The notes under the pieces are model-generated. The model saw nothing but the letters and a program-made list of their open reading frames with translations, made no database searches and was not told the DNA's origin. Below are positions 2,142 through 38,443 of a DNA stretch of 40,985 nucleotides, one piece after another (within the stretch, counting starts at the first letter, position 1; each line of letters opens with the position of its first letter). Both the position numbers and the translations under genes were made by a program. Origin of the DNA: Phycisphaerales bacterium (GTDB lineage: Bacteria > Planctomycetota > Phycisphaerae > UBA1845 > PWPN01); contig JAAYCU010000103.1 in the NCBI GenBank assembly GCA_012729595.1, positions 1-40,985 on the forward strand. The letters run 5' to 3'.

Positions 2142-2696
2142 ATGATGGACGAACGCCTGGAATACCTGATTACCCGACAACTCGACGGACGAATCAGCGA
2201 GGCCGAATTACTGGAACTGAACAAGGCGATGATTCGTTCCCCGGCAGTACATCGTCTTGTCAATGAATACCAAGCTAATGACGCGCTGGCCGCCGAAACG
2301 CTGCGCGACATATTTAAGCCTATCGCTTCCCCGGTAATGCCCAATCTGAAGGCCCCGCTACGGTCCAGATGGCGAACGTGGACCATCGTTCGGCCGGTAT
2401 TCATGGCGGCCGCGGCAGTAGCCCTCGCGGTCATGGTTCGCGGCCTTTCGTGGTCCTGGAATGTTGTCCCCTTGCAGGACCATAATACTCCTATCCTAAC
2501 CGCGACGCCCGGCCCGGCCGACGCGGAGTCGGAGCCGCAGCCGGCAACCCCGCGAAACGTGCTTGAGCCGCGATATGTCCACGAATATATGCCGCGCGAT
2601 TTCCTGGCGGTGATGGACGAGCAAGCACGGAATATCTACCTGCTGGAAATGGAGCGGCCGCGATCGAATATCGTGCCGGTGCGCATGCGCTATTAA
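2142..2696 (+). CDS. Putative membrane-anchored anti-sigma factor
   Basis: 184 residues. The N-terminal 60 or so (ERLEYLITRQLDGRISEAELLELNKAM) resemble the short helical cytoplasmic domain of planctomycete anti-sigma proteins that lack the HxxxCxxC zinc motif. One membrane helix follows at about 82-99 (VRPVFMAAAAVALAVMV), then a Pro-rich, probably periplasmic tail of about 80 residues ending in a basic stretch. AAGGTG eight bases before the ATG is a plausible ribosome binding site; it lies inside the end of the sigma gene. Position straight after an ECF gene, size and topology support an anti-sigma role. This is an inference from context more than from sequence similarity. Confidence 0.65.
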   Translation: MMDERLEYLITRQLDGRISEAELLELNKAMIRSPAVHRLVNEYQANDALAAETLRDIFKPIASPVMPNLKAPLRSRWRTWTIVRPVFMAAAAVALAVMVRGLSWSWNVVPLQDHNTPILTATPGPADAESEPQPATPRNVLEPRYVHEYMPRDFLAVMDEQARNIYLLEMERPRSNIVPVRMRY

Positions 2697-2829
2697 ATCA
2701 TCGGTAATCCACTGGCTCTGCCGGTGGTTGGTGATTGTCTTCGTGGTGCGAATAGACGTATCCGTTATCGAAAGGCCGGAGAGAGGCGGTCGCGGGCGGT
2801 TATGTCTGGATACAAGAGGAATAAAAACC

Positions 2830-4074
2830 ATGAATCCATACAGATGGATCGTATTATGCGGATTAGGTTGGCTGGCGGTAATTGCGTCGGTCAAGGCCGA
2901 GGATGCGAAAACTGGACAGAACCGGTCGCTGCTCACACAGGACGACGCGGTTGCGTGGCTGGGGGTGGAACTCGGACCGGTGCCGGATTTGCTGGCCGTT
3001 CATCTGCGGCTTGAGGTCGATACCACGGCGGATAACACCGCGTTCCCTACCGCGTCGCCGAGCAGGGGTTTGTTGATCGTCAATTTGTTCCGCGACAGCC
3101 CAGCCGATCGCGCGGGCCTGGAGCGCTATGATGTCATTGTGCAAGCTGATGGTGAGCAAGTCAGTGGCGAGGTAGGCATTTTCACTAGGCATGTGGGGGA
3201 TAAAAAGCCGGGCGATGCGTTGCTGCTGAAGCTCATCCGCAGTGGGCAGCCGATCAGCGTTACCGTTATGCTCGAGGAACGGCCGGGCCCCTGGCGGGAA
3301 CTGAATTTGAAATACCCCGAAGACCTCCTGACCCAGCGCGGCGCATTGCGAGGCCGGATACTGCATCGTGGTCCGGACGGACGGTGGGAACTGGAAGACC
3401 TCGGCACTTGGCCTTCGGCGGACGAACACGGGGACGGCTGGGCGCACCGATTACGCGAAGAGATGTCTCGTCGGCTGAAGGGAGACCGCACGGATCAGGA
3501 ATCATCGGAGATTAACGAGGCGTACCACATGGACGATGCGGGCCTGGTGGTACACGTTCGTCGTTTGCCCGACGGAACCATCACGGTCAAACGCTACCAA
3601 CAGGGCGAAGAACTGGAAAAGGCCGAAGTCAAAACCTATCGGGATCATCGAGACTTGCGCGCAAACGATATTACCGCCTGGAAATTGTTGTACCCCTCCG
3701 ATTTGCGGGACGAGGTGAAACACTACGTTGAGGAATTGCGCGAATACATCCCGGGTATTCGTCGCTGGTACGATCGTCACGAACCGTTTCGGAACGTACC
3801 GGATAAATGGCGCGAGTGGGAGGAGTTCTTATCTCGGGGGCCGATGCGGCGGTCTCGTGATTACGCACCGTCGTCGGCGCCCACCAGCACGGCGACCGAA
3901 GAGGAAAGCTCCGCGGAGGTTGGTTTCGAGGTGGATGCCCATAGCCAGGTGACAGTGACGATACGCGAGCCGGGCACGGAATTGAAATTGACCTACCCGT
4001 CGATCGACGAATTTCAGAAACAGGCTCCAGATCTCTACGCCCGCTTCGCCAGACTCCGAGACAAGGTTCGCTGA
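2830..4074 (+). CDS. Exported PDZ-domain protein
   Basis: 414 residues from the ATG at 2830, chosen because AGAGGA lies nine bases upstream and the protein then begins with a clean signal peptide (MNPYRWIVLCGLGWLAVIAS, likely cut after VKA at 23). A PDZ domain spans about 42-152: WLGVELGPVP at its start, then SRGLLIVNLFRDSPADRAGL, YDVIVQADGEQV and GDALLLKLIRSGQPISVTV, the usual carboxylate-binding and core strands. The remainder (about 155-414) is charged, without transmembrane segments or a recognisable catalytic triad, so it is not an HtrA protease. It is third in the ECF operon and may be an envelope-stress sensor or adaptor. An upstream in-frame ATG at 2728 would bury the signal peptide. 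Confidence 0.75.
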   Translation: MNPYRWIVLCGLGWLAVIASVKAEDAKTGQNRSLLTQDDAVAWLGVELGPVPDLLAVHLRLEVDTTADNTAFPTASPSRGLLIVNLFRDSPADRAGLERYDVIVQADGEQVSGEVGIFTRHVGDKKPGDALLLKLIRSGQPISVTVMLEERPGPWRELNLKYPEDLLTQRGALRGRILHRGPDGRWELEDLGTWPSADEHGDGWAHRLREEMSRRLKGDRTDQESSEINEAYHMDDAGLVVHVRRLPDGTITVKRYQQGEELEKAEVKTYRDHRDLRANDITAWKLLYPSDLRDEVKHYVEELREYIPGIRRWYDRHEPFRNVPDKWREWEEFLSRGPMRRSRDYAPSSAPTSTATEEESSAEVGFEVDAHSQVTVTIREPGTELKLTYPSIDEFQKQAPDLYARFARLRDKVR

Positions 4075-4387
4075 GTTGCATGTAGCAATCGGTTCATCGG
4101 GTCAGAACCAAATCTTGGTTTATCGTGCCGGCCGTAAATCCGTATTCTATGGCGAGGCTCGACATCGCACGACAGCCCTGGTCTTTCACTCTACTCTGCC
4201 AGCCGGGTAGAATGCCAACCAGAGTGGCTTGGTCGAAATGCCTTGATTCCGGGCCGACATGTTTCAACAGTATTCAGTTGCGCATATGTCACGATCATTG
4301 AACACAACCGAAGTATGATGGTATGTTACTGAGTGGCATAGCGTTACGCGTGGACCTCCCTTTTTATCGCATGAGGAGTTAACCAAG
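4075..4387. other. Intergenic region (313 bp)
   Basis: No gene is visible. It lies between the end of the PDZ gene and the Tat-exported TIM-barrel gene. Short inverted arms CTCTG and CAGAG near 4194-4225 enclose a wide loop. The right part is more AT-rich and carries a possible promoter, and GAGGAG at 4373-4378 is the ribosome binding site of the gene at 4388. Confidence 0.5.
4298..4327 (+). promoter_or_regulatory. Possible sigma-70-like promoter of the TIM-barrel gene
   Basis: TTGAAC (4298-4303) and TATGTT (4322-4327), 18 bases apart, resemble -35 and -10 boxes and lie about 60 bases before the start codon at 4388, in an AT-rich patch. The match is by eye only. Confidence 0.25.
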
Positions 4388-5293
4388 ATGAAAACACCGG
4401 ACATATCCCGTCGCGTGTTTCTGGCCGGCAGTGTAGCATCGGCCTCGCTCGTGAATAGGTCCAAGCCGGCGGCCGCAGAGCAGTCGGAAACACCCAGGAA
4501 TCCGATCTGTGCATTCACCAAATACCTGCATTCGTTATCTTACGATCAACTGGCTGAGTCGATCGCCCATCTGGGCTTCGACGGTATTGAAGCGGCCGTG
4601 AGGGAAAAGGGGCACATCCTGCCGGAACGAGTCCAGGACGACTTGCCCAAACTGATCGACGTCCTGGGGAAAAACGGCTTGGAAATAACAATCATGACGA
4701 CTTCCATTAGTCGGGCCGATCAACCTGCCGATGAAAAGATTTTGCGTCTTGCAGCCGGGCTTGGCGTTAAACGTTATCGGATGGGTTACTACACCTACGA
4801 CTTGGGCCGTCCGATCAAGCCGCAATTGCATGCCCTGCGCTCGATAGTACGTGAAGTAGCCGCGATGAACAGGGAGATCGGAATCCAAGGGTTGTACCAG
4901 AACCATGCTGGAGCCCGATATGTCGGGGCCACGGTCTGGGATTTCCAGTCGTTGATCGAAGATGTTCCGGTGGCCGAGATTGGCTTCGCGTTTGATATTC
5001 GCCATGCGGTCGTCGAGGCCGGTTTATCTTGGCCCGTCTTGCAGAATGTCGCTGAACCCCATCTGGGCGCTGTTTATGTGAAGGATTTCCGCTGGGAAAA
5101 CGATCGGACCGTCCACGTTCCGCTGGGCGAGGGCCGTGTGGACCGAGGTTTCCTCAACCGCTGCCAACGAGCGGCGTTCGGTGGTCCTTTCTCGCTGCAT
5201 GTAGAGTACCGTCAACAAGAGGGTGCCGAGCCGAATCTCGAGGCCTTGGGCCAGGATCGAATGACCCTTCGGCGTTGGCTCGCCGAAGCATAG
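4388..5293 (+). CDS. Tat-exported sugar phosphate isomerase/epimerase-like TIM-barrel protein
   Basis: 301 residues of the xylose isomerase-like TIM-barrel superfamily (AP endonuclease 2 type). The N-terminus has a twin-arginine signal, SRRVFLAGSVASAS (7-20), so the protein is probably exported folded. The barrel begins at ICAFTKYLHSLSYDQLAESIAHLGFDGIEA. Later blocks are GLEITIMTTS, GVKRYRMGYYTYD, IGIQGLYQNHAGARYVG, IGFAFDIRHAVVEAG, HLGAVYVKDFRW, VPLGEGRVD and FSLHVEYRQQ. Candidate metal or catalytic residues are the Glu of GIEA, the His of QNHAG, the Asp and His of FDIRHA and the Glu of HVEY. The substrate cannot be read from sequence. GAGGAG nine bases before the ATG supports the start. It converges on the KDPG aldolase gene. 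Confidence 0.8.
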   Translation: MKTPDISRRVFLAGSVASASLVNRSKPAAAEQSETPRNPICAFTKYLHSLSYDQLAESIAHLGFDGIEAAVREKGHILPERVQDDLPKLIDVLGKNGLEITIMTTSISRADQPADEKILRLAAGLGVKRYRMGYYTYDLGRPIKPQLHALRSIVREVAAMNREIGIQGLYQNHAGARYVGATVWDFQSLIEDVPVAEIGFAFDIRHAVVEAGLSWPVLQNVAEPHLGAVYVKDFRWENDRTVHVPLGEGRVDRGFLNRCQRAAFGGPFSLHVEYRQQEGAEPNLEALGQDRMTLRRWLAEA

Positions 5294-5385
5294 CATATCA
5301 ATGGAATGCGGATAAGTTGTTGGTCAATACCTTACTACGTTGGTGGATATTGAAGGTGAGCCGTGGTGGTCAAGCCAGTTGTATT

Positions 5386-6039
5386 CTACCCGGCCGCGCG
5401 GGCCTCGCGCACGCGCTTGAGAAACTCGGCCGCGTTTTTTCTAATTGTTTCAAAGTCACGGTTGGCCAGGGCTTGTTTACTGATCAGGGATGATCCGATG
5501 CCCAGGGCGGTAGCGCCAGCTTGGATAAAGTCGGCGGCGGTGTCCAGGGTGACCCCTCCGGTCGGGATCAGCTTGATATGTGGTAGCGGACCACGGAGAT
5601 CCTTGAGATATGTCGGCCCGAGCGTACTGGTGGGAAATACTTTGATAAAATCGGCGCCCGCCTGGTGAGCCCGAACTATTTCCGTCGGCGTTAAAGCTCC
5701 CGGCGCGACCGGGATGCTATAGCGGTTACACAATTCGATGGTCGGCATATCCACGATAGGGGTGATGATATACTGTGCACCCGCGAGGATCGCGGCCCGC
5801 GCGGTTTCGGCGTCCAGGACCGTACCCACTCCGATGAAGGCGGAACTGCCACACATCTGCCGCGCCTGTCGTGCGACCTCCAGGGCGTTCGGGGTGGTCA
5901 TGGTCAGTTCGATACAGGTCACTCCGCCCGCCCGCAAGGCATTAACCACGTCAATAAGCTGCTCACTGTTGGTCGCCCGGATGATCGCGACTATCCCGGT
6001 AGAGGTAATCTCGTGAATGACTTTCGATTTTTCGGACAT
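5386..6039 (-). CDS. eda: Bifunctional KDPG/KHG (2-keto-3-deoxy-phosphogluconate) aldolase
   Basis: A class I aldolase splitting 2-keto-3-deoxy-6-phosphogluconate (and often 4-hydroxy-2-oxoglutarate) into pyruvate plus an aldehyde, in Entner-Doudoroff or uronate breakdown. 217 residues from MSEKSKV; AAAGG eight bases upstream supports this ATG over the longer reading from 6084. Family blocks are present: GIVAIIRATN, GVTCIELTMTTPNA with the catalytic Glu at about 44, FIGVGTVLDAE, AQYIITPIVD, PVAPGALTPTE, the Schiff-base Lys at about 133 in FIKVFPTSTLGP, and IKLIPTGGV with the phosphate-binding Gly-Gly. It lies about 100 bases downstream of the ketosynthase genes on the same strand but is unlikely to share their function. 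Confidence 0.92.
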   Translation of the reverse strand: MSEKSKVIHEITSTGIVAIIRATNSEQLIDVVNALRAGGVTCIELTMTTPNALEVARQARQMCGSSAFIGVGTVLDAETARAAILAGAQYIITPIVDMPTIELCNRYSIPVAPGALTPTEIVRAHQAGADFIKVFPTSTLGPTYLKDLRGPLPHIKLIPTGGVTLDTAADFIQAGATALGIGSSLISKQALANRDFETIRKNAAEFLKRVREARAAG

Positions 6040-6138
6040 GGTCGTGACCTTTAGAGCTGTTCGAGCATTTACCACGCGGGCCATTTGAAACTGCCATCCT
6101 AACCGACCGGCCCGGTAACGGCGGCCAGGGATCCCGGG

Positions 6139-7449
6139 TTAATCCTCGATTTTGCGTATAATCAGCGTGTCATTCTGCCCGCCAAACCCGAAACTATTGC
6201 TCAGGACGGTACGCACGTTGGCTTTGCGAGGTTTGTTGGGGACGTAGTCGAGTGGGCAATTAGGATCCGGCTGTTCGTAATTCGTGGTCGGCGGGATGAT
6301 CCCATCGCGAATGGTCAGCACCGAGGCGATAACTTCGGTCGCCCCGGCCGCCGCGATCAGGTGGCCCATCATGCTTTTGATCGAGCTGACCGGAACCTGG
6401 GGGGCGGAGTCTCCCAAGGCCCGCAGAATGGCCCGCGACTCGATCTTATCATTTTCCTCGGTACTCGTGCCGTGGGCCGAGATATAGTCAATGTCCTCGG
6501 GCTTGAGTCCCGCATCCTTGAGGGCCAGAGCGATGGCCGCTAGCCCACCCCGTCCTTCGTCGTGCATGTCGGTTACCCGGAACGCATCGGCGGTCGAGCC
6601 GAATCCGCTGATCTCCGCGTGACAGGTGGCGCCTCGTTGGCGAGCATGCTCGTAATCCTCGAGGATCACGATGGCCGCCCCCTCGCCCAGAACGAACCCG
6701 TCGCGGGTCCGGTCAAAAGGTCGGCTGGCGGTCGTCGGCGCATCATTACGCGTGGATAAAGCCGTCAGGCGGTTGAAACCGGTTACGCCGAAGGGGTGCA
6801 ACATGCTGTGTGTGCCGCCCGAAATAATCACGTCCGCATCGCCGCGGCGGATCACATGGGTGGCCTCTCCGATAGCCTGCGTACTGGCCGCACAGGCGGT
6901 CAAAGTATTCAAGCTCGGTCCCTGAGCGTTAAACAGGCAGGCGATATGACCGGCGGCCATATTGGGATCCTGCTCAAATTCGGTGACGGCGGTCAGCCGT
7001 GCGGCGGCCACTTCCACCCAGCGACGCGCATCCAGATCGCCGGCTCCATTGTTGGCCTGTCGGTCCCAACCGTTTACGGCCGCCGCGGTAAAATTGTCGA
7101 AATCGATCGGCCCCTCGCCTCCCCCTAGATAAACCCCCACCCGCGTCGGATCGAGGTCCGGGTAGCCGGACAGGTTGGCATTGTCCCAGGCCATCCTGGC
7201 CGCCGCCAAGGCAAAACGCGTATTTAGACTGGCGGTTTGGTGGATCTCCGTATCCGAACCAAGGTATCGGGCCAGATCGAAGTTCTTTACTTCGGCCGAG
7301 AAAGTAGTGGGAAAAGTACTCGCGTCGAACCGCGTGGTCGCCCCGATGCCGCTGGCACCGCTCAGCAGACCCTGCCAGACCGATTCGATATTATCGCCGA
7401 GCGGCGTGATCCAGCCCATACCCGTTATCACTACGCGTCGTCGTTTCAC
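6139..7449 (-). CDS. Beta-ketoacyl-ACP synthase II-like (KS-alpha, catalytically complete)
   Basis: 436 residues, FabF-type thiolase fold. It should condense malonyl-ACP with an acyl chain. The triad is complete: Cys186 in LTACAASTQAIGEA, His326 in YISAHGTSTEEND and His363 in SSIKSMMGHLIAAAGA. Other KS landmarks are VVITGMGWITPLG at the start, RPFDRTRDGFVLGEGAA, and the C-terminal SNSFGFGGQNDTLI. It starts one base after the stop of the KS-like gene before it (7451), implying translational coupling and a stoichiometric pair. It ends a minus-strand set of dehydratase, ACP, dehydratase, KS-like, KS. Similarity to primary FabF is clear, but the pairing argues for a specialised chain rather than housekeeping fatty acids. 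Confidence 0.92.
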   Translation of the reverse strand: MKRRRVVITGMGWITPLGDNIESVWQGLLSGASGIGATTRFDASTFPTTFSAEVKNFDLARYLGSDTEIHQTASLNTRFALAAARMAWDNANLSGYPDLDPTRVGVYLGGGEGPIDFDNFTAAAVNGWDRQANNGAGDLDARRWVEVAAARLTAVTEFEQDPNMAAGHIACLFNAQGPSLNTLTACAASTQAIGEATHVIRRGDADVIISGGTHSMLHPFGVTGFNRLTALSTRNDAPTTASRPFDRTRDGFVLGEGAAIVILEDYEHARQRGATCHAEISGFGSTADAFRVTDMHDEGRGGLAAIALALKDAGLKPEDIDYISAHGTSTEENDKIESRAILRALGDSAPQVPVSSIKSMMGHLIAAAGATEVIASVLTIRDGIIPPTTNYEQPDPNCPLDYVPNKPRKANVRTVLSNSFGFGGQNDTLIIRKIED

Positions 7450-7450
7450 G

Positions 7451-8782
7451 TTAACTCTCCAGCTTTTTCATAACCAAGGCTGCGTTCTGTCCGCCGCCGA
7501 GGGCATAGGCCACGCTGAGAACGGCGTTTATGGGGGCGGTCATCGGCTTGCCGGTTACGACCTTGAAGGCACATTGCGGATCGATGTTCAGCACATTCGC
7601 GGCCGGGGGAATCGTATTGTTTTTCAAACACAAGGCGGCCACCGCCAGATCGATCGCGCCGCTGCCGGCCCCGTTGTTCCCGATGGCGCCTTTGATCGCC
7701 ATGGCGGGAATCTCGCCGGCCCGCGCTCCCAAAACCGTCCGTACCCCACGAGCCTCGGACTGATCGTGTTCGACGATGCCCGTGCCGAAGGTGGCCAGCA
7801 TATCGATGGAATCGGCGTCCACTTCGGCGTCTTTCAGGGCTTTGCGAATCGCCAATGCGATACCGCGGCCTTGCGGATCGGGGGTATGCCAGTTGTGCGT
7901 ATTGCTGGAAGCGCCAAAGCCAACCAGCTCGGCGTAAATGTTCGCTCCGCGGGCCTTGGCGTGTTCGAGTTCCTCAAGAATCAGCAGGCCGCCTCCTTCG
8001 CTGATGACCGTTCCGTCGTGGGCGATGTCGAAAGGCCGACAAGCCGTACCAGGATCGTTGGAGCGACTGAGCCGGCCAAGCAACTCCTGGCGCAGCAGGC
8101 CCATCGGGTTGAGCTTGCTTTCCGCCCCCCCGCAGATGCAGACGTCCGCATCCCCGCGGGTGATCGTGCGAAAAGCCTCGCCGATCGCCAAATGGCTGGA
8201 GGCCTCGGCGCAGGTAATCGTATTGGAGGGAGCTTGGGCGTCATGCACGATGGTCACGTGACAGGACAGCATGTTCGGAAGGAATTTCAATAGCCACAGC
8301 GGGGTTAAATTACTCATCCCCTCGCGGCCCCAACGGCGGATATCGAACGTGCCCTGTTCGTTGACGGCCGAGGCTAAAGCACCCGCCAGTTCGGTAAGAT
8401 CGGCACAGATCAGACCGGCTCCGATATTGGCCCCGAAGCGACTCGGATCGACGCTGACCGGCCCGTCGGCTTCCTTGCGATCGAGTATGCACTTGGTCAC
8501 CAGACCCGCGTCCTTGACCGCCAGATAGCTGGCGACCACGGCGATTTCAATGTCCCGGGCCATGATCTTGACGCTTTTTCGATAGGTTTTAGGCACGAAA
8601 TCCGCGGTTTTCATCTGCGTGATCTGACCGGCGATCCGTGCCTTGAACCCCGAGGGGTCGAACGGCTCGATGTTCGAAATCCCGTTTTTCCCTTCCAACA
8701 GACCGTTCCAAGTCGCCTCCGCTCCGATACCCAGGGGCGTAACCAGACCCAGTCCGGTAATGACCACGCGTCGCGAATTCAT
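7451..8782 (-). CDS. Ketosynthase-like partner lacking both active-site histidines (KS-beta / chain-length-factor-like)
   Basis: 443 residues with the ketosynthase fold and ends (VVITGLGLVTPLG at the N-terminus, VAYALGGGQNAALV at the C-terminus). The nucleophile is kept, Cys191 in NTITCAEASSHLAIGEA, but both histidines are lost. The HGT motif reads FGT (Phe332), and the second motif, normally GH, reads GN (Asn369 in AIKGAIGNNGAGSG); the neighbouring Lys364 is kept. Classical chain-length factors lose the Cys instead, so this is a different kind of degeneracy. It probably cannot decarboxylate malonyl-ACP and may act as a structural or length-setting partner, or hold an acyl chain on Cys191, for the intact KS encoded one base downstream. 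It is fourteen bases after the dehydratase gene. Confidence 0.88.
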   Translation of the reverse strand: MNSRRVVITGLGLVTPLGIGAEATWNGLLEGKNGISNIEPFDPSGFKARIAGQITQMKTADFVPKTYRKSVKIMARDIEIAVVASYLAVKDAGLVTKCILDRKEADGPVSVDPSRFGANIGAGLICADLTELAGALASAVNEQGTFDIRRWGREGMSNLTPLWLLKFLPNMLSCHVTIVHDAQAPSNTITCAEASSHLAIGEAFRTITRGDADVCICGGAESKLNPMGLLRQELLGRLSRSNDPGTACRPFDIAHDGTVISEGGGLLILEELEHAKARGANIYAELVGFGASSNTHNWHTPDPQGRGIALAIRKALKDAEVDADSIDMLATFGTGIVEHDQSEARGVRTVLGARAGEIPAMAIKGAIGNNGAGSGAIDLAVAALCLKNNTIPPAANVLNIDPQCAFKVVTGKPMTAPINAVLSVAYALGGGQNAALVMKKLES

Positions 8783-31085: not shown

Positions 31086-33614
31086 ATGGCCGATTGCCCA
31101 TCCGACCACCGATTGCTGGCTTATATCCGAAACACCTGCGACGAGGAGGAGGCGGTCGCGGTGGGTATGCACGTGGAGGAGTGTACGGCCTGTCGGGAGC
31201 GGATGGAGCAGGCCGCGGCCGGTGACGGGGTGCTGAGCGGACTTCGGGACGTGATGGCCGAGGCGGTCAACGTGGCCGCCGGGGACGCGGTTACCGCGGC
31301 CGGGCCGGCGATGGCCAGCACGCTGGGCAAGGGGCCCTCGGTCGGGGCTGACCGGAACATCGGGGATTACCGGCTGATCGAGGAACTTGGCCGGGGCGGC
31401 ATGGGCGTGGTCTATCTGGCCATGCAGGCCTCGACCAAGCGGCAGGTGGCCCTCAAGGTTCTGCTGGAGGGGCCTTACGCCTCGGAGATGGCCCGGCGCC
31501 GATTCGAACGCGAGGTCGAACTGGCCGCCCAGCTTGAACATCCCAACATCGTGACCATTCTCGAAAGCGGCATCACCAGCGGGCTTTATTACTTCGCCAT
31601 GCAATACGTCTCCGGCCGGCGGCTGGACCGCTACGTGACCGAGCAGCAACTGGGTACAAAGCAGATTCTCGAACTTTTCCGCAAGATCTGCGCGGCCGTC
31701 AATTACGCCCATCAGCGGGGGGTGATTCACCGCGATCTGAAACCGTCGAATATCTTCATCGACGCGGCCGGCGAGCCGCACATTCTGGATTTCGGACTCG
31801 CCAAGTTTCGTGACGAGGATGGCGAGGAACCCGAGGCAACGCAGTTGTCCATGCCGGGTCAGGTGATGGGCACGTTGCCTTATATGTCGCCCGAGCAGGC
31901 GGCCGGGGCCCATCGGGAGCAGGACACCCGCAGCGACGTTTACGCCCTCGGCGTGATCCTCTATCAGTTGTTGACCGGCCGTTTCCCTTATCCGGTGACC
32001 GGCAAGCTGCACGACGTGGTCCACAATATCGTCGAGGTCCAGCCCGAAAAGCCCTCGGCGGCCGACCGGAAGATCGACAACGACGTACAGACTATCGTGT
32101 TGCGGGCCCTGGCCAAGGAGAAGGACCGCCGCTACCAGTCGGCGGGGGAGCTCGGACGCGATATCGAGTTATACCTGCGCGGCGACCCGATCGAGGCGAA
32201 GCGGGACAGCACGGTTTACGTGTTGCGCAAGATGGCCTATCGATATCGGGTGGGTCTGTCGGCGGCGGCGGTGTTCCTGGCGGTGGTGGGGATCGGCCTG
32301 GCGACGGTATTGGTCCAGCGTGTGGGTTTGCAGATGGCTAAGGCCGAGGATCTACTGGCCCAGTTCGCGGACATGCCGGCGGCGGCCCTGACCGGCGCGA
32401 AGCAATCCGACGGCCGCGTACGCCGGTACCTTGCCGGAACCACCGAACGGGCCTTGTTCTCGGATGCCGAACCACGCCGGGTCATGGGCGCGTGCAGCGG
32501 TTTGTTCAATGCCCCGGCCGATTTCTGGCGATCGGTGGAGGACGGCCCCTTGTGGTCGGGTGGGGAATGGCTTGAATTATGCGAATTTCCTGACGAGTTG
32601 AAAACGCACCTTCTGACCAGGCTGAAAGACAAGGCGGCCGCGGGCACGGACCGCCAGAAATACGTGGCCTTCTGCGTGCTCGGACAGTGGGCGATTCCCG
32701 ATGTCGAGGCGATCGGGCTTTGTCGGCGGGCGGTGGAGTCGGAAAACATCCCCGGCGTGGTGATGGCCGCCGCCTGGGCCGCGGAGCGCATGGGTTCACC
32801 AGTGGTGTTGTCTTCGCGCGACGATGTCTTCGTAGATGATTGTGCTCGATTGACCTTTGTGAAGGTTCCGGGATGCACGTCTTTTCGGCGCGGGTCGGAT
32901 CCGAGCGATCCGGATCGCTGGCCGGACGAGGACCGCCCGGAGCAGGGCGTGCCGATCCGCTCGTTCTATCTGGCCACTACGGAAGTGACCTTGGCCCGTT
33001 TGCCGGATATGGTTAACGATGCCACGCTTCGGGAGGCGTTCGGCGAGGACGCCCAGGGGATCAACGAGCTGGACAAAATGGTTTATGAGTTGCGGGCCGA
33101 TCCGCAGTTGGACCCGTCGCGGGTGGCGTTGACCCGGGTAGCGATGGAAACGGCGTCCGTTTACTGCACCTGGTTGACGCGGCAGGGCGAGCAGCTCGTT
33201 CCCCGCCGGCGGTATCGTCTGCCGACCGAGGATGAATGGGAATATGCCTGTCGGGCCGCGAACGAAGGGCGTTTCTGTTACGGGAACGACGCCGCGTACG
33301 CCCGCTATTTCGCCCATTGTGATGGCTCATTGGCGAGCCACCATCGGGTTGCCGAACACATGCCCAACGGGTACGGTTTATTCGATATGCACGGCGGGGT
33401 GTGGGAGTGGTGCGATTCGCTGTATCCGCCGGAGCTGACCGGTAATCCGGCGCTGGCGGGCATGACGTTGTATGTCCGGCGGGGGGGGGCGTTATACCTG
33501 GCGGCCGTACGTTGCCGTTCGGCCCAGCGCAACTACGGCGGATGGAACGTTCCGTACAGCGAAGTGTTATACTGGAACGGGCTTCGGCCGGTGATGGAGT
33601 TGATAGAGCCATGA
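31086..33614 (+). CDS. Transmembrane Ser/Thr protein kinase with N-terminal zinc-finger-like motif and C-terminal FGE/sulfatase-modifying-type domain
   Basis: 842 residues from MADCPSD. Order: short HxxxCxxC zinc-finger-like motif (HVEECTAC, 29-36) as in anti-sigma proteins; Hanks-type kinase (95-368) with GRGGMGVVY (102-110), VALK Lys124, HRDLKPSN (Asp217), DFG (235-237), SPE (268-270) and TRSDVYALG (281-289), so all catalytic residues are present; membrane helix (390-412); a helical linker; and an SUMF1/FGE-like domain (about 590-842) with FVKVPG, FYLATTEVT, RYRLPTEDEWEYACRA (710-723), GVWEWCDSL and LRPVMEL. FGE domains of this type are usually ligand-binding rather than catalytic. The kinase is cytoplasmic, the FGE part outside the membrane. 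Its TGA overlaps the ATG of the lipoprotein gene. Confidence 0.92.
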   Translation: MADCPSDHRLLAYIRNTCDEEEAVAVGMHVEECTACRERMEQAAAGDGVLSGLRDVMAEAVNVAAGDAVTAAGPAMASTLGKGPSVGADRNIGDYRLIEELGRGGMGVVYLAMQASTKRQVALKVLLEGPYASEMARRRFEREVELAAQLEHPNIVTILESGITSGLYYFAMQYVSGRRLDRYVTEQQLGTKQILELFRKICAAVNYAHQRGVIHRDLKPSNIFIDAAGEPHILDFGLAKFRDEDGEEPEATQLSMPGQVMGTLPYMSPEQAAGAHREQDTRSDVYALGVILYQLLTGRFPYPVTGKLHDVVHNIVEVQPEKPSAADRKIDNDVQTIVLRALAKEKDRRYQSAGELGRDIELYLRGDPIEAKRDSTVYVLRKMAYRYRVGLSAAAVFLAVVGIGLATVLVQRVGLQMAKAEDLLAQFADMPAAALTGAKQSDGRVRRYLAGTTERALFSDAEPRRVMGACSGLFNAPADFWRSVEDGPLWSGGEWLELCEFPDELKTHLLTRLKDKAAAGTDRQKYVAFCVLGQWAIPDVEAIGLCRRAVESENIPGVVMAAAWAAERMGSPVVLSSRDDVFVDDCARLTFVKVPGCTSFRRGSDPSDPDRWPDEDRPEQGVPIRSFYLATTEVTLARLPDMVNDATLREAFGEDAQGINELDKMVYELRADPQLDPSRVALTRVAMETASVYCTWLTRQGEQLVPRRRYRLPTEDEWEYACRAANEGRFCYGNDAAYARYFAHCDGSLASHHRVAEHMPNGYGLFDMHGGVWEWCDSLYPPELTGNPALAGMTLYVRRGGALYLAAVRCRSAQRNYGGWNVPYSEVLYWNGLRPVMELIEP

Positions 33615-34504
33615 TGCCCAGGCTGCTCTATAGAATCGCGATTGCGTCGGCCCTGCTGGCCGGTTCATGCACATGGTTCGGACCGGTATACACCTCGCCG
33701 CCGATCGAAACGAGCTTCGCCTTTACCAACTTTTCCAAGAGCTACTATGCCGCCCTTGGTTTGCGGGCGTATACGTCCGCGGACAGCGCGGAGCCGTATG
33801 TTATCACGCCGTTGCTGGCTCCGGGAGCGACCTATCGGAAGCGGTTTCTGGACGTGTTCGGCGGAGGCTGTCCAAACGCGATTGATTTCCGACTGTTTCT
33901 GTACAAAAGGGTAGATGACGATCTACCTATCGGCCTCGATGATGGTGAAGAAGTGGAGCGGATGCCGCTGGTGGCCGGTGAGATTCTGGGTTTGCCGGCC
34001 TGCGGTGTGCAGCCGTTGGAAACCTATACAATCGTCAACTGGGAAGCGCCGGAAGGAACTGCCCGGGTAAAACTGGCCCAGGCCACGCCGCTGGAGCAAG
34101 AGATGGCGGCCGCGGGGTTATTTCCGAACGCCGATGGGGCGTGGGAAATCGTCGGCGTCGATCCGGCTTTGGCGGAAACACCGCCGCCGGCCCCGGCCCC
34201 GGTGCAGAGTATTCGCGGGCGAGTAACCCTGACCGACGGCCGGGGGGTCGAGGGGCAGGGCGTGCTTATCCGCAGCCGATTCCGCGTGCGGCTGGACGAT
34301 GGCGATTCGTCGAACGATCCAGACGCGGGATACGGCGATCCGATTGATTTCACGGCCACCGATGCGAACGGTTGGTTCGTAATCGATCGGCCGGCGGGGG
34401 CGTATCAGGTCGAGTTCTTCTCGGATGATTACCTGTTTCGACCGGCGGTGATCGAGGTGGAGACGCCGCTGGAGGATATCGCCATCATTGCGGAGCCGCG
34501 GTGA
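33611..34504 (+). CDS. Putative lipoprotein with a carboxypeptidase-regulatory-like (Ig-fold) C-terminal domain
   Basis: 297 residues from the ATG at 33611, which overlaps the kinase stop in an ATGA. The signal is lipoprotein-like: MMPRLLYRIAIASALLAGSC, with an AGSC box that is slightly irregular (Ser at -1). Mature N-terminal part (TSFAFTNFSKSYYAALGLRAY and FGGGCPNAIDFRLFLYKR) is unrecognised. The last 100 residues (IRGRVTLTDGRGVEGQGVLIRSR, TATDANGWFVIDRPAGAYQVEFFSDDYLF) match the usual pattern of CarboxypepD_reg-like Ig domains, separated from the rest by a Pro-rich linker (ETPPPAPAPVQ). Its TGA overlaps the next ATG by one base, so it is co-translated with the protease-like gene. Function unknown; a surface adhesion or carbohydrate-binding role is possible. 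Confidence 0.65.
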   Translation: MMPRLLYRIAIASALLAGSCTWFGPVYTSPPIETSFAFTNFSKSYYAALGLRAYTSADSAEPYVITPLLAPGATYRKRFLDVFGGGCPNAIDFRLFLYKRVDDDLPIGLDDGEEVERMPLVAGEILGLPACGVQPLETYTIVNWEAPEGTARVKLAQATPLEQEMAAAGLFPNADGAWEIVGVDPALAETPPPAPAPVQSIRGRVTLTDGRGVEGQGVLIRSRFRVRLDDGDSSNDPDAGYGDPIDFTATDANGWFVIDRPAGAYQVEFFSDDYLFRPAVIEVETPLEDIAIIAEPR

Positions 34505-35646
34505 TGTTCATCAAGCGTTCCATTCCAACCCTGTTGCTCATGGCGGTCATTACGCTGGCCCTCGGGAGCTGTGCCGGTATTGAAATAACCACCGGGGCGG
34601 AAGTGAACCCGTTTCAGGAGCTTCCGCCGATCGCCTTGGACGGACAGGAGCAAGAGTTGCGGACCGATCTGGCCCCGCTGGGCGAGCTGGTTGCCGGGCA
34701 GGTGCTTCGGCTCAAGGTAAGCGGCCCGGCGGTCAAGGCGGCGTTGATCCTGACGGCCGATACGGAACTGGACGATACGGGCCGGTTGGCCGGCGGCGGA
34801 CCGCCGAACCAGAGCTTTCAATATCGCGTCCAAGTCCCGGGGCCGTACTATGTGTATATCCAGTTTGACCCGCAGGCCGGGGGGCGCCAGTTGCGTGCAA
34901 CAATTACGGCCGAGCCGGGCGATCCGGACTACCGGCCGCCGAGCAGGCAGGTGGTGCGGGTGGTTTTCCTCGAAGGGTATCTGACCGAGCCCGGCCTGTA
35001 CGATCCGGACTCGATGACCGACGACGAAAAGCAACTGCTGGTCGATCTGAGTGATCTGGTCGCGGAGGGCATCGTGGATCGGTTGCGGACGATCTTCGCG
35101 GATACGCCGATCGAGATCGTGGCCGAGGATGAGCCTTTGCCGGACGAGCCTTATTCCACATTATATTACGATCCGCGGCGCGTGCTGGCCGACGAGCAGG
35201 ATATTCACGATGTGGCCCTGCCTCCTGCCGACCCGACCCGACCGGAATGCCAGGTGCGGGTAATCTTCGGCGAGGTTTTGCCGCGCGGCCTGATGCAGGA
35301 TCCCGGCAATCGTGTACTCGACGACGAGGCGGCGGTCTATGTGGGTAGTTACCAGGGCCGGGGCGCGACCTGTCGTACAAGAGTGACCGACAGCGTGAAC
35401 AATATGGTATTGGCCTTGGCCCAGACGGGGGCCCACGAGATCGGCCATCTGGTCGGGCTGATGCACACCGAACAGGTAACGCTCATGCACCGCTCGGCGA
35501 CATTGGCCTTTATGCGCGAACTGGCCTTCGATCGCGGACAGGTTCAAATCGAAACGGGTCAAAGCACGGACGTGTTCACCGAGGTACTCACCCCGATCAT
35601 TCAAGACCCCTCTTTCTACTGGCAAACCAATTTCTCGCGGCCTTGA
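34504..35646 (+). CDS. Putative metzincin-type zinc protease lipoprotein
   Basis: 380 residues. Signal with lipobox ending ALGSC at Cys23. The zinc motif HEIGHLVGLMH fits HExxHxxGxxH with His311, Glu312, His315, Gly318 and His321, the hallmark of metzincins (metzincin-like matrixins, snapalysins, pappalysins). A Met at about 328 (TLMHRS) could be the Met-turn, although it comes early. Between the signal and the zinc motif lie beta-rich segments (GGPPNQSFQYRVQVPGPYYVYIQF, a jelly-roll-like strand set, and QVVRVVFLEGYL). The exact family is undetermined. It is the third gene of the kinase operon and would face the periplasm or cell surface. Confidence 0.75.
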   Translation: MFIKRSIPTLLLMAVITLALGSCAGIEITTGAEVNPFQELPPIALDGQEQELRTDLAPLGELVAGQVLRLKVSGPAVKAALILTADTELDDTGRLAGGGPPNQSFQYRVQVPGPYYVYIQFDPQAGGRQLRATITAEPGDPDYRPPSRQVVRVVFLEGYLTEPGLYDPDSMTDDEKQLLVDLSDLVAEGIVDRLRTIFADTPIEIVAEDEPLPDEPYSTLYYDPRRVLADEQDIHDVALPPADPTRPECQVRVIFGEVLPRGLMQDPGNRVLDDEAAVYVGSYQGRGATCRTRVTDSVNNMVLALAQTGAHEIGHLVGLMHTEQVTLMHRSATLAFMRELAFDRGQVQIETGQSTDVFTEVLTPIIQDPSFYWQTNFSRP

Positions 35647-35652
35647 CGCCGG

Positions 35653-36291
35653 TTATCGCCGCATTTGCTGGAAATGCTGCTGGCAGGCGGCGGTACTGCC
35701 GCCGAAGAATCCGGCCCGGGCCAGATCGCCGCAGCGTCCGGAGGGGCCGGACATCGGGTTGAGCCGCGCCTGAAAGATATTATTCACCGGCGAGGCGAAA
35801 CCCAGACCGGTAGCCGGTCCGCGCTGAATTCCCGGTCGGCCGATGACCGCGCTGGCGAAGGTCGGCGGAGGGGCGGCCAATCCCGGGCGGCCGATCGCCG
35901 ACGCGGCGGACATACTGACCATTTCGGAGACTTCCTTGCCCGCGCCGACAAGCTGCGCCGTGGAGCCGTACATCGTGGGACCAACCAGGGTCATCATCTG
36001 ATACATCGGGCCGGGCGCGGTGTAGGTCGGCGCAGTGGTTGGCCGCGTGGACGGTACGGCGGCGGTCGGAATGGCATCGTTCGCGTTGGGATCGGAAGCT
36101 TCGGCCGGTTCGAGCGGTTTGCTTGCCGCGTCGATGGGCGTACCCATCTCCGAGGCCAGAATAACCGTGGGGTGTTGATACGCGACGGGGGCGACGGGCG
36201 GCCGATGAAAGATTCGCTGCGCGGATTGACAGCCGGCGGTTGAGATCACCGCCAGTATGAACAGAACGCAAGGCAACCCTTTCGCGGCCAT
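35653..36291 (-). CDS. Lipoprotein with low-complexity mature region, unknown function
   Basis: 212 residues from the ATG at 36291; GAGAGGTGGG lies just upstream. An earlier in-frame GTG is possible. The signal ends in a good lipobox, ISTAGC, and the mature protein is rich in Ala, Pro, Gly, Thr and Met (PTAAVPSTRPTTAPTYTAPGPMYQMM). IGRPG occurs twice in spaced copies (AIGRPGLAAPPPTF, VIGRPGIQRGPAT). The C-terminus has two cysteines (SGRCGDLARAGFFGGSTAACQQHFQQM). No domain recognised. It converges on the metzincin gene with six bases between stops. Confidence 0.55.
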   Translation of the reverse strand: MAAKGLPCVLFILAVISTAGCQSAQRIFHRPPVAPVAYQHPTVILASEMGTPIDAASKPLEPAEASDPNANDAIPTAAVPSTRPTTAPTYTAPGPMYQMMTLVGPTMYGSTAQLVGAGKEVSEMVSMSAASAIGRPGLAAPPPTFASAVIGRPGIQRGPATGLGFASPVNNIFQARLNPMSGPSGRCGDLARAGFFGGSTAACQQHFQQMRR

Positions 36292-36344
36292 GATTATGCC
36301 CACCTCTCATATTACAGGTTAGCGACAACCTCCCGCCGCTTCAA

Positions 36345-38057
36345 CTACCAGCGAACCACCAACGCGGTGGCGTCGTCGTTGATCAGCGGCGGATCGGCCG
36401 GCCGATCCACGGCGGCGAAAAGGGCGGCCACGTCGTCAGCCCCCGCCGGAAGCGTCGGCAGAAAACGCAGCAGAATCCCGGAGCCGAAGTCTTTTGTCTC
36501 CTCGGCCGGGGGCGGGGCGAAACCGTCCAACATATCTTGCTCGGCGGCGTGCCCGAACGCCTCGACGATCCCATCGCTGAAGACGAACACCTTGTCGCCG
36601 TCGTCGAGCGTACGATGCAGGCTTTCAAACGACGAGTCCGGCAGGATACCGACCGGGCCGTCGTGTTGGCCGACCAGCATCGTGCATTGCCCGGCGGCGT
36701 TCATGAGTACCGCGTGGCCGTGCCCGGCGTCAACATAGTCGAGCGTACCGGCGGCCACGTCGAACACGCCGACCCATAGGGTGATGAATTTGCTCGGTGG
36801 ACAGCGGACGTGGAAGAAGCGGTTCAACTCGCTGACCGCGCGGCCGGGGTCGTCGTGGCGCTGCAAGGCGGCGTGGAGATAGCCCTGGGCGGTGGTGACC
36901 AGAACGGCGGCGGCCACGCCCTTGCCCGCGACATCGCCAAGAGCAAAGGCCAGCCGGTGATCATCGAGAGGCACGACATCGAAGAAATCGCCGCCGAGAT
37001 ATCGACCCGCCCGGCTTTCGCCGAGATAGCTGATCCGGGCGAAACGGCCTTCGCGGCGGGGGAGCATCAGTTGCTGCACGGCGGCGGCGGAGGTGAGTTC
37101 GGCCTCCATGCGGGCGTGACGACGTTCAATGTCCAGGCGTTGCAGGTTGGACATGGCCAGTCCGGCCATCCGGGCCAGGCCGAGAGCGAAACCGGTGGCA
37201 TCCTCCCGCACGCGACGAGGCGTGCCCGCGATGGAACGGTTATCGAGGTACAGATAGGCCGCGACCTCGGAGCCGACCAGCACGGGTGCGCACAGGGCAT
37301 CGGTCAAACCGAGTTCCATGATGCTCTGGGCCTGACTGGTGATCCGGGTCTGGGCGGTCAGGGCAGCGGGCGTGCCGCCGGCGGCTTCCCGCAACAGGGA
37401 ACGGCTGACATGGACCGCTGCCGGGCCGGTAAACGCCGGGCCGCGACAGGCGAGTACCTCGAACGCATCCGGGGTCGTGCCGGGGCGGAGAAACGCGCCG
37501 TTGGAGAAACCTGTTCCCGACAGGCTGGCCTGCAAAACGGCATCGGCCAAGGCCTGTGGATCGTCGGCGGCGTGGATGGCCGCCGCGCAGTTGAGCAGCA
37601 GGGTAAGTTTTTCGCCGGCCAGCCGGTCGGCGGCCTGGGCGTCCAGCCGGGTAATGATCGTATCGGTCGATCCCAGATCGTCACTGGTGGCGATAGTCGC
37701 GGGTTGATCGGGGGCCAGTCCCTCGGCGATAAGCCGCAATGTCCACGGCCCGATGGTGATGCGGTCCCCCGGATGCAGAGGGACGGCCTGGGTGCCGGTC
37801 AGACGCAGGCCGTTGAGGTATGTGCCGTGCGTGCTGCCCGCGTCGGCGAGCAGGGGGTGGAATTCGCCTTCGCCGCCGGGCGCGAAGGTGATCCTGGCAT
37901 GAGCCCGGGAGACGCTCGGATCGTCGAGCACCAGGGTCTGCTGGGCGGAACGCCCGATAGTCACCGCTGCCGGCGGGGCCAGCTCGAACGCGATCGGCGT
38001 CGGCCCGTCCGTGGAGAGCAGTTTCAGTTCTGGTCGCATGTTGTCGGAATCGGCCAT
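36345..38057 (-). CDS. FHA-GAF-PP2C (SpoIIE-type) protein serine phosphatase
   Basis: 570 residues from the ATG at 38057, preferred over one nine codons upstream because GAGGGGG precedes it. An N-terminal FHA domain (about 30-112) has VTIGRSAQQ, the phosphothreonine-binding SVSRAHARITF and GSTHGTYLNGLRL. A GAF-like sensor region lies at about 150-320 (DALCAPVLVGSEVAAYLYLDNR). The C-terminal half is a SpoIIE/PPM phosphatase: RYLGGDFFDVVPLDDHRLAFALGDVAGKGVAAA, ITLWVGVFDVAAGTLDYVDAGHGHAVL, VFVFSDGIVEA and ADDVAALFAAV, with the metal-binding aspartates present. Such proteins read phosphothreonine signals and dephosphorylate targets, often anti-sigma antagonists. It is near the membrane kinase but on the other strand. 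Confidence 0.9.
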   Translation of the reverse strand: MADSDNMRPELKLLSTDGPTPIAFELAPPAAVTIGRSAQQTLVLDDPSVSRAHARITFAPGGEGEFHPLLADAGSTHGTYLNGLRLTGTQAVPLHPGDRITIGPWTLRLIAEGLAPDQPATIATSDDLGSTDTIITRLDAQAADRLAGEKLTLLLNCAAAIHAADDPQALADAVLQASLSGTGFSNGAFLRPGTTPDAFEVLACRGPAFTGPAAVHVSRSLLREAAGGTPAALTAQTRITSQAQSIMELGLTDALCAPVLVGSEVAAYLYLDNRSIAGTPRRVREDATGFALGLARMAGLAMSNLQRLDIERRHARMEAELTSAAAVQQLMLPRREGRFARISYLGESRAGRYLGGDFFDVVPLDDHRLAFALGDVAGKGVAAAVLVTTAQGYLHAALQRHDDPGRAVSELNRFFHVRCPPSKFITLWVGVFDVAAGTLDYVDAGHGHAVLMNAAGQCTMLVGQHDGPVGILPDSSFESLHRTLDDGDKVFVFSDGIVEAFGHAAEQDMLDGFAPPPAEETKDFGSGILLRFLPTLPAGADDVAALFAAVDRPADPPLINDDATALVVRW

Positions 38058-38443
38058 CGGCACGGCCCCCTCATTTCGACCCATGAGGCTATGGTCAACG
38101 GATAAGCATAAATGAATCCGCCGCCGGAGCCAATGCGTCTAACCCCGTGCGCCCTTGATACGAGTCAGGCACGTAGCGGATACACAACTGTGGACTGTGC
38201 TGAGCCTCTTCTAAGGCCCTTATGAAGCCATGGCGGCACCAGGTCTGCCCGTGTGTCACCGCATACGGATCGGGCCGACGAGGATCATGAGCAAAGACTT
38301 TCAAGATTGCGCGCTGGCCGTTTGGAGCTTCTGAGATTTACACGTGATGGTTTATATTCTTTGATCTGTGCAATAATACACATAAACTGTCTATGCCCGC
38401 ACCATCCGGGCATGGCTCTGAGCAGTACGTCGATTGGAGGATA
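38058..38443. other. Intergenic region (386 bp) with one doubtful minus-strand reading frame
   Basis: A minus-strand frame at 38304-38095 gives a 69-residue peptide from a TTG (KVFAHDPRRPDPYAVTHG and so on) that looks protein-like but has no recognisable domain, no ribosome binding site and lower third-position GC than its neighbours; it could be the tail of a lost gene. The last 110 bases are AT-rich (TTTATATTCTTTGATC near 38350) and probably hold the promoter of the glycosidase gene. GGAGG at 38436-38440 is that gene's ribosome binding site. Confidence 0.3.

Follow-up and report, generated by a model that had tools for sequence, protein, structure and literature searches.

A Phycisphaerales receptor kinase encoded with two overlapping lipoprotein genes: a conserved ectodomain-lipoprotein core and an exchanged kinase half

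Introduction

Serine/threonine kinases with a periplasmic sulfatase-modifying-factor domain, which resembles formylglycine-generating enzyme (FGE), are described as a common architecture in planctomycetes (PMC11032199). Here, we analyze a three-gene locus on a 40,985-nt stretch of DNA from a Phycisphaerales bacterium (contig JAAYCU010000103.1 of assembly GCA_012729595.1; "the window" refers to this entire stretch). The locus encodes a kinase of this kind (P1), followed on the same strand by two lipoproteins (P2 and P3), the second of which resembles metzincin proteases. Like the kinases described there, the window kinase is predicted to be single-spanning, with its FGE-like domain on the periplasmic side; compared with that description, the system presented here adds two lipoprotein genes as a constant pair, conservation of the juxtamembrane region, and an exchange of the kinase half. 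We find that this half, which is cytoplasmic, was exchanged on at least two occasions.

Phosphorylation of an extracytoplasmic function (ECF) sigma factor by a kinase is also a known mechanism (PMC8999054; PMC13147305), and these two reports describe the pairs EcfP-PknT and EcfK-PknS (ECF43), along with the planctomycete groups ECF59, ECF61, ECF62, and ECF217. In those pairs, as in relatives of the window kinase, the ECF gene adjoins that of a transmembrane Hanks kinase. Kinases of the window's type (type A, defined below) differ from the ECF43 pairs as described there in that the kinase bears a zinc finger and the partner sigma factor keeps its DxxD motif. The finger itself recalls the zinc-binding anti-sigma (ZAS) factors, which share with type A kinases a zf-HC2 domain with HxxxCxxC at the N terminus and, as in the relatives of the window, an adjacent ECF gene. 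In contrast to ZAS factors, the type A finger is fused to a kinase, and its sigma binding is putative.

Two further comparisons concern the cell envelope. Proteins that combine tetratricopeptide repeats (TPRs) with a barrel (Slam/DUF560, type 11 secretion) can expose lipoproteins (PMC8406197). A TPR protein that co-occurs with our locus resembles them in its link to lipoproteins and in its layout, with periplasmic-type TPRs ahead of a probable barrel, but it lacks a DUF560 profile match, and its barrel is predicted from sequence. P3 shares with the metzincins (matrixins, reprolysins, and archaemetzincins) the zinc motif, a candidate Met-turn, and the fold; unlike known members, it lies under every Pfam family cutoff, is lipid anchored, carries a PPC-like N-terminal domain, and is encoded with a kinase. 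Kinase-FGE fusions and ECF-kinase pairs are already known; their combination with a lipoprotein pair was not found in the literature searched, which lay mostly outside subscription journals. The signals of bacterial receptor kinases are mostly unknown. Because the ectodomain here comes with named, co-varying periplasmic partners and an outer-membrane candidate, the route of the signal is open to testing one gene at a time.

Conservation of the kinase-lipoprotein locus

A first-pass annotation of the window had described a kinase-FGE fusion and two lipoprotein genes overlapping at stop/start junctions, and we confirmed this three-gene locus with small corrections only. The genes for P1 (positions 31086 to 33614; 842 amino acids [aa]), P2 (33611 to 34504; 297 aa), and P3 (34501 to 35646) lie on the plus strand, as do all features given below unless noted. 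The kinase and P2 genes share ATGA (33611 to 33614), a 4-nt overlap read directly from the junction letters AGCCATGATG. The P2/P3 junction reads GGTGATG, and P3 may start at either GTG (34501) or ATG (34504) in the translation of the window, so the overlap at GTGATG (34501 to 34506) measures 4 nt in the first case and 1 nt in the second. The overlaps recur across 28 loci, including the window: at the kinase/P2 junction, 22 loci show a 4-nt overlap, 1 locus a 1-nt overlap, and 5 another arrangement, and the corresponding numbers for P2/P3 are 20, 5, and 3.

We retrieved 33 relative loci for comparison of the trio, a check that the annotation had proposed. The same order and strand were found in 27 of them, and the scenario that the annotation named as refuting, in which the three genes are neighbors in no relative, does not hold. 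The six loci without a full trio are two contig-end cuts (L046 and L051), an end fragment (L059), and three distant metzincins (L060 to L062); L059 to L062 were excluded from junction work and yet scored as misses in this count. Taken together, the conserved order, the gene overlaps, the co-occurrence, and the distance correlations presented below strongly support the kinase, P2, and P3 as one unit.

A search with P3 of 101 genomes (the window's own plus 100 relatives) gave matches of some kind in 65, with long matches only in f1, the family of the window, and in f8, a second family of the order; the remainder were short and mostly centered on the zinc motif. P2 matched in 34 of 114 genomes of the order and was counted as present in 31, all in f1 and f8, after two genomes with weak partial matches (G004 and G012) and one with a divergent match (G493) were dropped. 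Among 392 genomes sampled from the phylum, P2 gave no full-length match other than the window's own, all others scoring at most 27.7 bits. The divergent G493 locus (L140, about 2661 to 8217) holds a P2-P3 pair that keeps the zinc motif, with a TPR/barrel-like gene about 2 kb away and no adjacent kinase. A scan with one genome per species returned 45 loci, of which the close ones, including UBA1845 and the chromosome CP070691, are titled as Phycisphaerae, Phycisphaerales, or Planctomycetota metagenome bins. The sole close record titled Alphaproteobacteria (L070, JANQQE010000014.1) carries a trio gene and is probably a mislabeled bin.

Architecture of the receptor kinase

The zinc-finger-like HxxxCxxC noticed in the first pass near the start of P1 (residues 29 to 36; 31170 to 31193) belongs to an anti-sigma-type finger that matches zf-HC2 (5e-5; 23.7 bits against a curated cutoff of 22.2). 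Of 13 type A kinases, 12 have the motif, the other (L135) being cut, and none of 14 type B kinases has it; the zf-HC2 profile scores under its cutoff in L035 and L045. The Hanks domain that follows (about residues 93 to 372; 31362 to 32201) matches Pkinase at 1.1e-50 and has an intact core, as claimed, with VALKV, HRDLKPSN (residue 215), and DFG all present. The one hydrophobic segment of the protein, near residue 392 (19-residue windows starting at residues 387 to 398; 32244 to 32336), agrees with the membrane helix previously assigned and is followed by the juxtamembrane region. P1 therefore combines the catalytic motifs, single predicted membrane helix, and extracytoplasmic domain of a Hanks-type receptor kinase.

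The C-terminal FGE-like domain (about residues 591 to 842; 32856 to 33611) matches FGE-sulfatase at 6.6e-26 over residues 592 to 815. Its FGE-type assignment holds, while its location, earlier called external, is most likely periplasmic. Active FGE carries a catalytic, copper-binding Cys pair. In the corresponding stretch of 25 kinase rows, this pair is absent, and one shared Cys (residue 810) is found instead. An active formylglycine-generating enzyme was thus rejected as the identity of the domain, the match being at the level of the fold only.

Two kinase types and one ectodomain

In the kinase alignment, the proteins split into type A, which includes the window and combines HRDLKP (HRDIKP in L048) with the zinc finger, and type B, which has HCDLKP and no finger. 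We compared 25 typed loci (12 main type A, 12 type B, and L035). The mean identity of the kinase domain is 65% within type A and 62% within type B but 32% between them, which is no higher than that of the window kinase to its best kinase-domain matches in its own genome (34 to 40%). The other parts behave differently from the kinase domain: between types, the mean identity is 37% for the juxtamembrane region (42% within each type) and 41% for the FGE domain (48% within A and 42% within B). Pairwise distances in 21 loci correlate strongly among the ectodomain and P2 (r = 0.87), the ectodomain and P3 (r = 0.89), and P2 and P3 (0.92), whereas those of the kinase domain track the ectodomain, P2, and P3 less closely (0.56 to 0.62; 0.56 for P2 and 0.62 for P3). 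From the between-type identities and these correlations, we conclude that the ectodomain, P2, and P3 constitute a conserved core and that the kinase half was exchanged.

On a tree of P2 plus P3, the A/B label needs two changes, and the starred branches force two. Labels were available for 24 of its 31 rows, two of them (L043 and L046, both type B) inferred from a kinase located on a different contig of their genome. Near-copies and fragments were excluded from the alignments (L038 and L051 from A1; L038 from A2; L038, L034, and L011 from A3). A separate, second instance of type A is L035. The identity of its kinase to the main type A group is 50%, inside the 43 to 64% seen for ECF-linked kinases that carry other ectodomains, and its ECF partner reaches 200 bits, compared with at least 329 in the main group. 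The natural replacement of kinase and output while the sensor is retained is evidence for modularity in these receptors. In this little-known planctomycete group, the same outward-facing sensor has repeatedly been joined to different internal outputs.

Output partners of the two kinase types

Of the 12 type A loci with upstream sequence, 11 carry a gene for an ECF sigma factor (Sigma70_r2, 2e-10) upstream of the kinase. The window is the exception; its genome encodes the ECF protein on another contig (G000:C226, 2.5e-98), with the trio on C77. For type B, a class III cyclase gene lies upstream in 10 of 13 loci, and intervening genes occur in L055 to L057. The cyclase domain of these partners matches at 1.4e-10 to 2.6e-13; of three proteins scanned, Guanylate_cyc is above its cutoff in all and the FHA domain in one (L042).

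These partners follow the presence of P2. The ECF subfamily, defined by a cutoff of 328.6 bits that was chosen after the gap to the next score (298.8) had been seen, occurs in 14 of the 114 genomes, all with P2, and the cyclase occurs in 18, of which 17 have P2. One or the other is found in 29 of 31 P2 genomes and in 1 of 83 others. Both occur together only in G030 and G033, each of which holds one trio per type; these genomes offer matched pairs for comparing sigma-factor and cyclase output.

Seven ECF paralogues examined from outside the subfamily all adjoin a kinase-like gene with a zinc-finger motif whose match to the trio profile is limited to the N-terminal half; the ECF plus finger-kinase pairing thus resembles a general plug-in of the order. 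The kinase-domain row closest to that of the window (69%) is one of these paralogue-linked finger kinases. Activation by phosphorylation of the ECF43 type was rejected: the acidic motif in sigma2.2 (DAED) is not lost, since the partner ECF protein keeps DxxD, as DAQD, in 8/8 rows, and the ECF43 switch therefore does not carry over as such.

A TPR protein that co-occurs with the locus

A gene for a TPR protein precedes the ECF gene in seven loci (L036, L039, L041, L048, L136, L137, and L142) and also in the window's own genome, on C226 (L130). The protein has a signal-peptide-like start, TPRs, and, in 7/7 rows, a C-terminal alternating aromatic strand. Such a strand is a typical signal of outer-membrane barrels. 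We take this end of the protein as a probable outer-membrane barrel; one weak match to the Phenol_MetA_deg profile was also seen among these rows. The DUF560 profile (PF04575) gave no match at E values up to 1 in any of the seven rows, and identity with Slam was rejected for this reason.

At a cutoff of 448.5 bits, again chosen once the gap to the next score (180.2) had been seen, the TPR protein is found in 28 of 31 P2 genomes and in 1 of the other 83. The completeness of the three P2 genomes that lack it is 78 to 84%, and f1 or f8 genomes without P2 have no match above 180.2 bits. The single exception without P2 (G068:C647, L139) has the TPR/barrel gene beside an FHA-cyclase gene on a 4.5-kb contig; this genome belongs to a third family (f7), is 75% complete, and yielded no P2. 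In type B genomes, the TPR-protein gene is mostly nonadjacent, so more than the joint transfer of a single operon must underlie the co-occurrence.

The lipoproteins P2 and P3

Both proteins begin with a hydrophobic stretch ahead of a lipobox Cys that is invariant (Cys20 of P2 in 27/27 rows and Cys24 of P3 in 28/28 rows), in keeping with their earlier description as lipoproteins. The N-terminal half of P2 has two further invariant Cys residues (87 and 131) in 27/27 rows. The tail of P2, previously labeled Ig-like, is instead a CnaB/carboxypeptidase-regulatory-type (transthyretin-like) domain: in the structural model (mean predicted local distance difference test [pLDDT] score of 87.9), it resembles 3is0 (Z score of 12.2, root mean square deviation [rmsd] of 1.7, 81 residues aligned), and CarboxypepD_reg is found in 27/27 P2 rows at E values up to 0.1. 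A search of PDB sequences with the P2 profile returned mainly NOMO/EMC7-type matches to this C-terminal domain, plus two weak angiotensin-converting-enzyme rows.

The P3 model, built with an alignment (mean pLDDT of 88.5), has two domains. Residues 32 to 140 resemble bacterial PPC/collagen-binding domains (5sv5; Z score of 8.7, rmsd of 3.0, 94 aligned), and residues 146 to 381 resemble metzincins (3lmc; Z score of 11.7, rmsd of 2.8, 141 aligned), with archaemetzincins, ADAM, and snake-venom reprolysins next in the list. Foldseek gave a matrixin row (1c3i) at a probability of 1.00, agreeing with the VIA rows on a metzincin; its first rows were esterases (TM score of 0.11 to 0.18, rmsd of 17 to 20), which we took as chance and rejected as the fold of P3. 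The zinc motif HEIGHLVGLMH (residues 312 to 322; 35434 to 35466) conforms to HExxHxxGxxH, which is intact in 27/28 rows, and a candidate Met-turn residue, Met329, lies seven residues past it and is likewise kept in 27/28. The row with the broken motif, L053 (G001:C598), comes from a fragmented genome, and its reading is lost ahead of the motif through a frame break, a truncation, or an assembly error. Weak matrixin matches occur in 27/28 P3 rows, and the window P3 scores 19.8 of the 27 bits required for Pfam family M10, 18.6 of 24 for M12, and 11.2 of 24.4 for M54. The earlier term metzincin-like is thus borne out by the fold, zinc motif, and Met-turn candidate but not by Pfam family membership.

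Proposed mechanism and alternative explanations

We tentatively favor, at somewhat less than even confidence, a trans-envelope receptor in which a conserved periplasmic sensor is joined to an exchangeable cytoplasmic output and the trio supplies the sensor half. This reading builds on the gene layout, co-variation, half exchange, co-occurrence, predicted folds, and intact motifs reported above. The FGE-like ectodomain, which the first-pass annotation had supposed to read an external ligand and which may do so, would dock the lipid-anchored P2 and P3, made beside the kinase, in the periplasm. The TPR part of the outer-membrane protein would connect the ectodomain, P2, and P3 to the cell surface. 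P3, as a tethered and putatively active metzincin with P2 as its candidate partner, would cut a substrate that carries information about the envelope or surface; candidates are P2, a peptide associated with the barrel, and a protein entering from outside. The altered occupancy of the ectodomain would then switch the kinase. The zinc finger of type A kinases, that of the window included, may hold or recruit the dedicated ECF sigma factor, which the kinase would release or activate for transcription. In type B, phosphothreonine marks placed by the kinase may recruit the FHA domain of the class III cyclase and lead to a cyclic nucleotide. That the whole amounts to a new receptor layout, with a co-translated lipid-anchored metalloprotease and adaptor, TPR/barrel coupling, periplasmic proteolysis as the act of sensing, and replaceable output, is a possibility that we regard as rather doubtful.

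Several observations weigh against a receptor of this kind. The window's own ECF gene is unlinked to the trio, and the pairing there rests on orthology. The cyclase gene is nonadjacent in three type B loci (L031 to L033), and two genomes (G009 and G096) have P2 but neither output partner. No Pfam metzincin family reaches its curated cutoff in the window P3. The Fisher tests of co-occurrence (P = 4e-22 for the TPR protein) treat genomes as independent and ignore shared descent, so their significance is overstated.

The chief competing explanation is that P2 and P3 are effectors, a surface protease and its partner exported in a Slam-like manner via the TPR/barrel protein, with the kinase and its sigma factor or cyclase controlling or checking export. 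The best evidence for it is the G493 locus, where a P2-P3 pair and a TPR/barrel-like gene occur without an adjacent kinase, a further point against the receptor. The lipoprotein nature of P2 and P3, the TPR protein with its probable barrel in nearly all P2 genomes (28/31), and the reported capacity of TPR-barrel proteins to expose lipoproteins (PMC8406197) also suit it. However, P2 and P3 co-vary with the ectodomain and the genes overlap tightly, both of which suggest a complex with the kinase, and the TPR protein lacks the DUF560 match. Overall, we consider an effector role unlikely, if still a serious contender.

In another scenario, which we judge improbable, the trio senses envelope stress: P3 would shed or cleave the ectodomain of its partner kinase, and receptor proteolysis would set kinase activity. 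P3 shares with P1 both its message and the membrane system to which it is tethered, and it co-varies with the ectodomain, but simple binding would yield co-variation equally well, and no conserved cleavage site was seen, though none was searched for. It is very improbable that the FGE-like domain is itself an enzyme, catalyzing formylglycine formation or a related oxidation on P2, P3, or another envelope protein: the Pfam match is in its favor, but a single shared Cys stands in the 25 rows where active FGE has a pair, and the fold occurs in many relatives that are not FGE enzymes. An accidental neighborhood, in which a kinase gene and two unrelated lipoprotein genes overlap by chance, is practically refuted because the trio arrangement is conserved in relatives from two families of the order with differing flanks.

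Neighboring genes

Two sets of genes flanking the trio in the window were considered as parts of the system and dropped. An upstream ABC exporter pair is absent near other trios in neighbor clustering, and an FHA-GAF-SpoIIE phosphatase gene (36345 to 38084, minus strand) clustered with no gene near another trio. By its position next to the trio, the latter may encode a phosphatase partner of the kinase. Between an ECF gene and the kinase gene, L036, L037, and L039 have an open reading frame of about 141 aa that appears STAS-like by eye; the L036 copy has no Pfam match. Immediately downstream of P3 in the window, a gene on the minus strand (35653 to 36303) encodes a 216-aa lipoprotein-like protein that has no Pfam match and has a homologue near the trio of L034. 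A recurrent lipoprotein-like family of about 180 to 280 aa is found downstream of P3 in L041, L043, L045, and L048.

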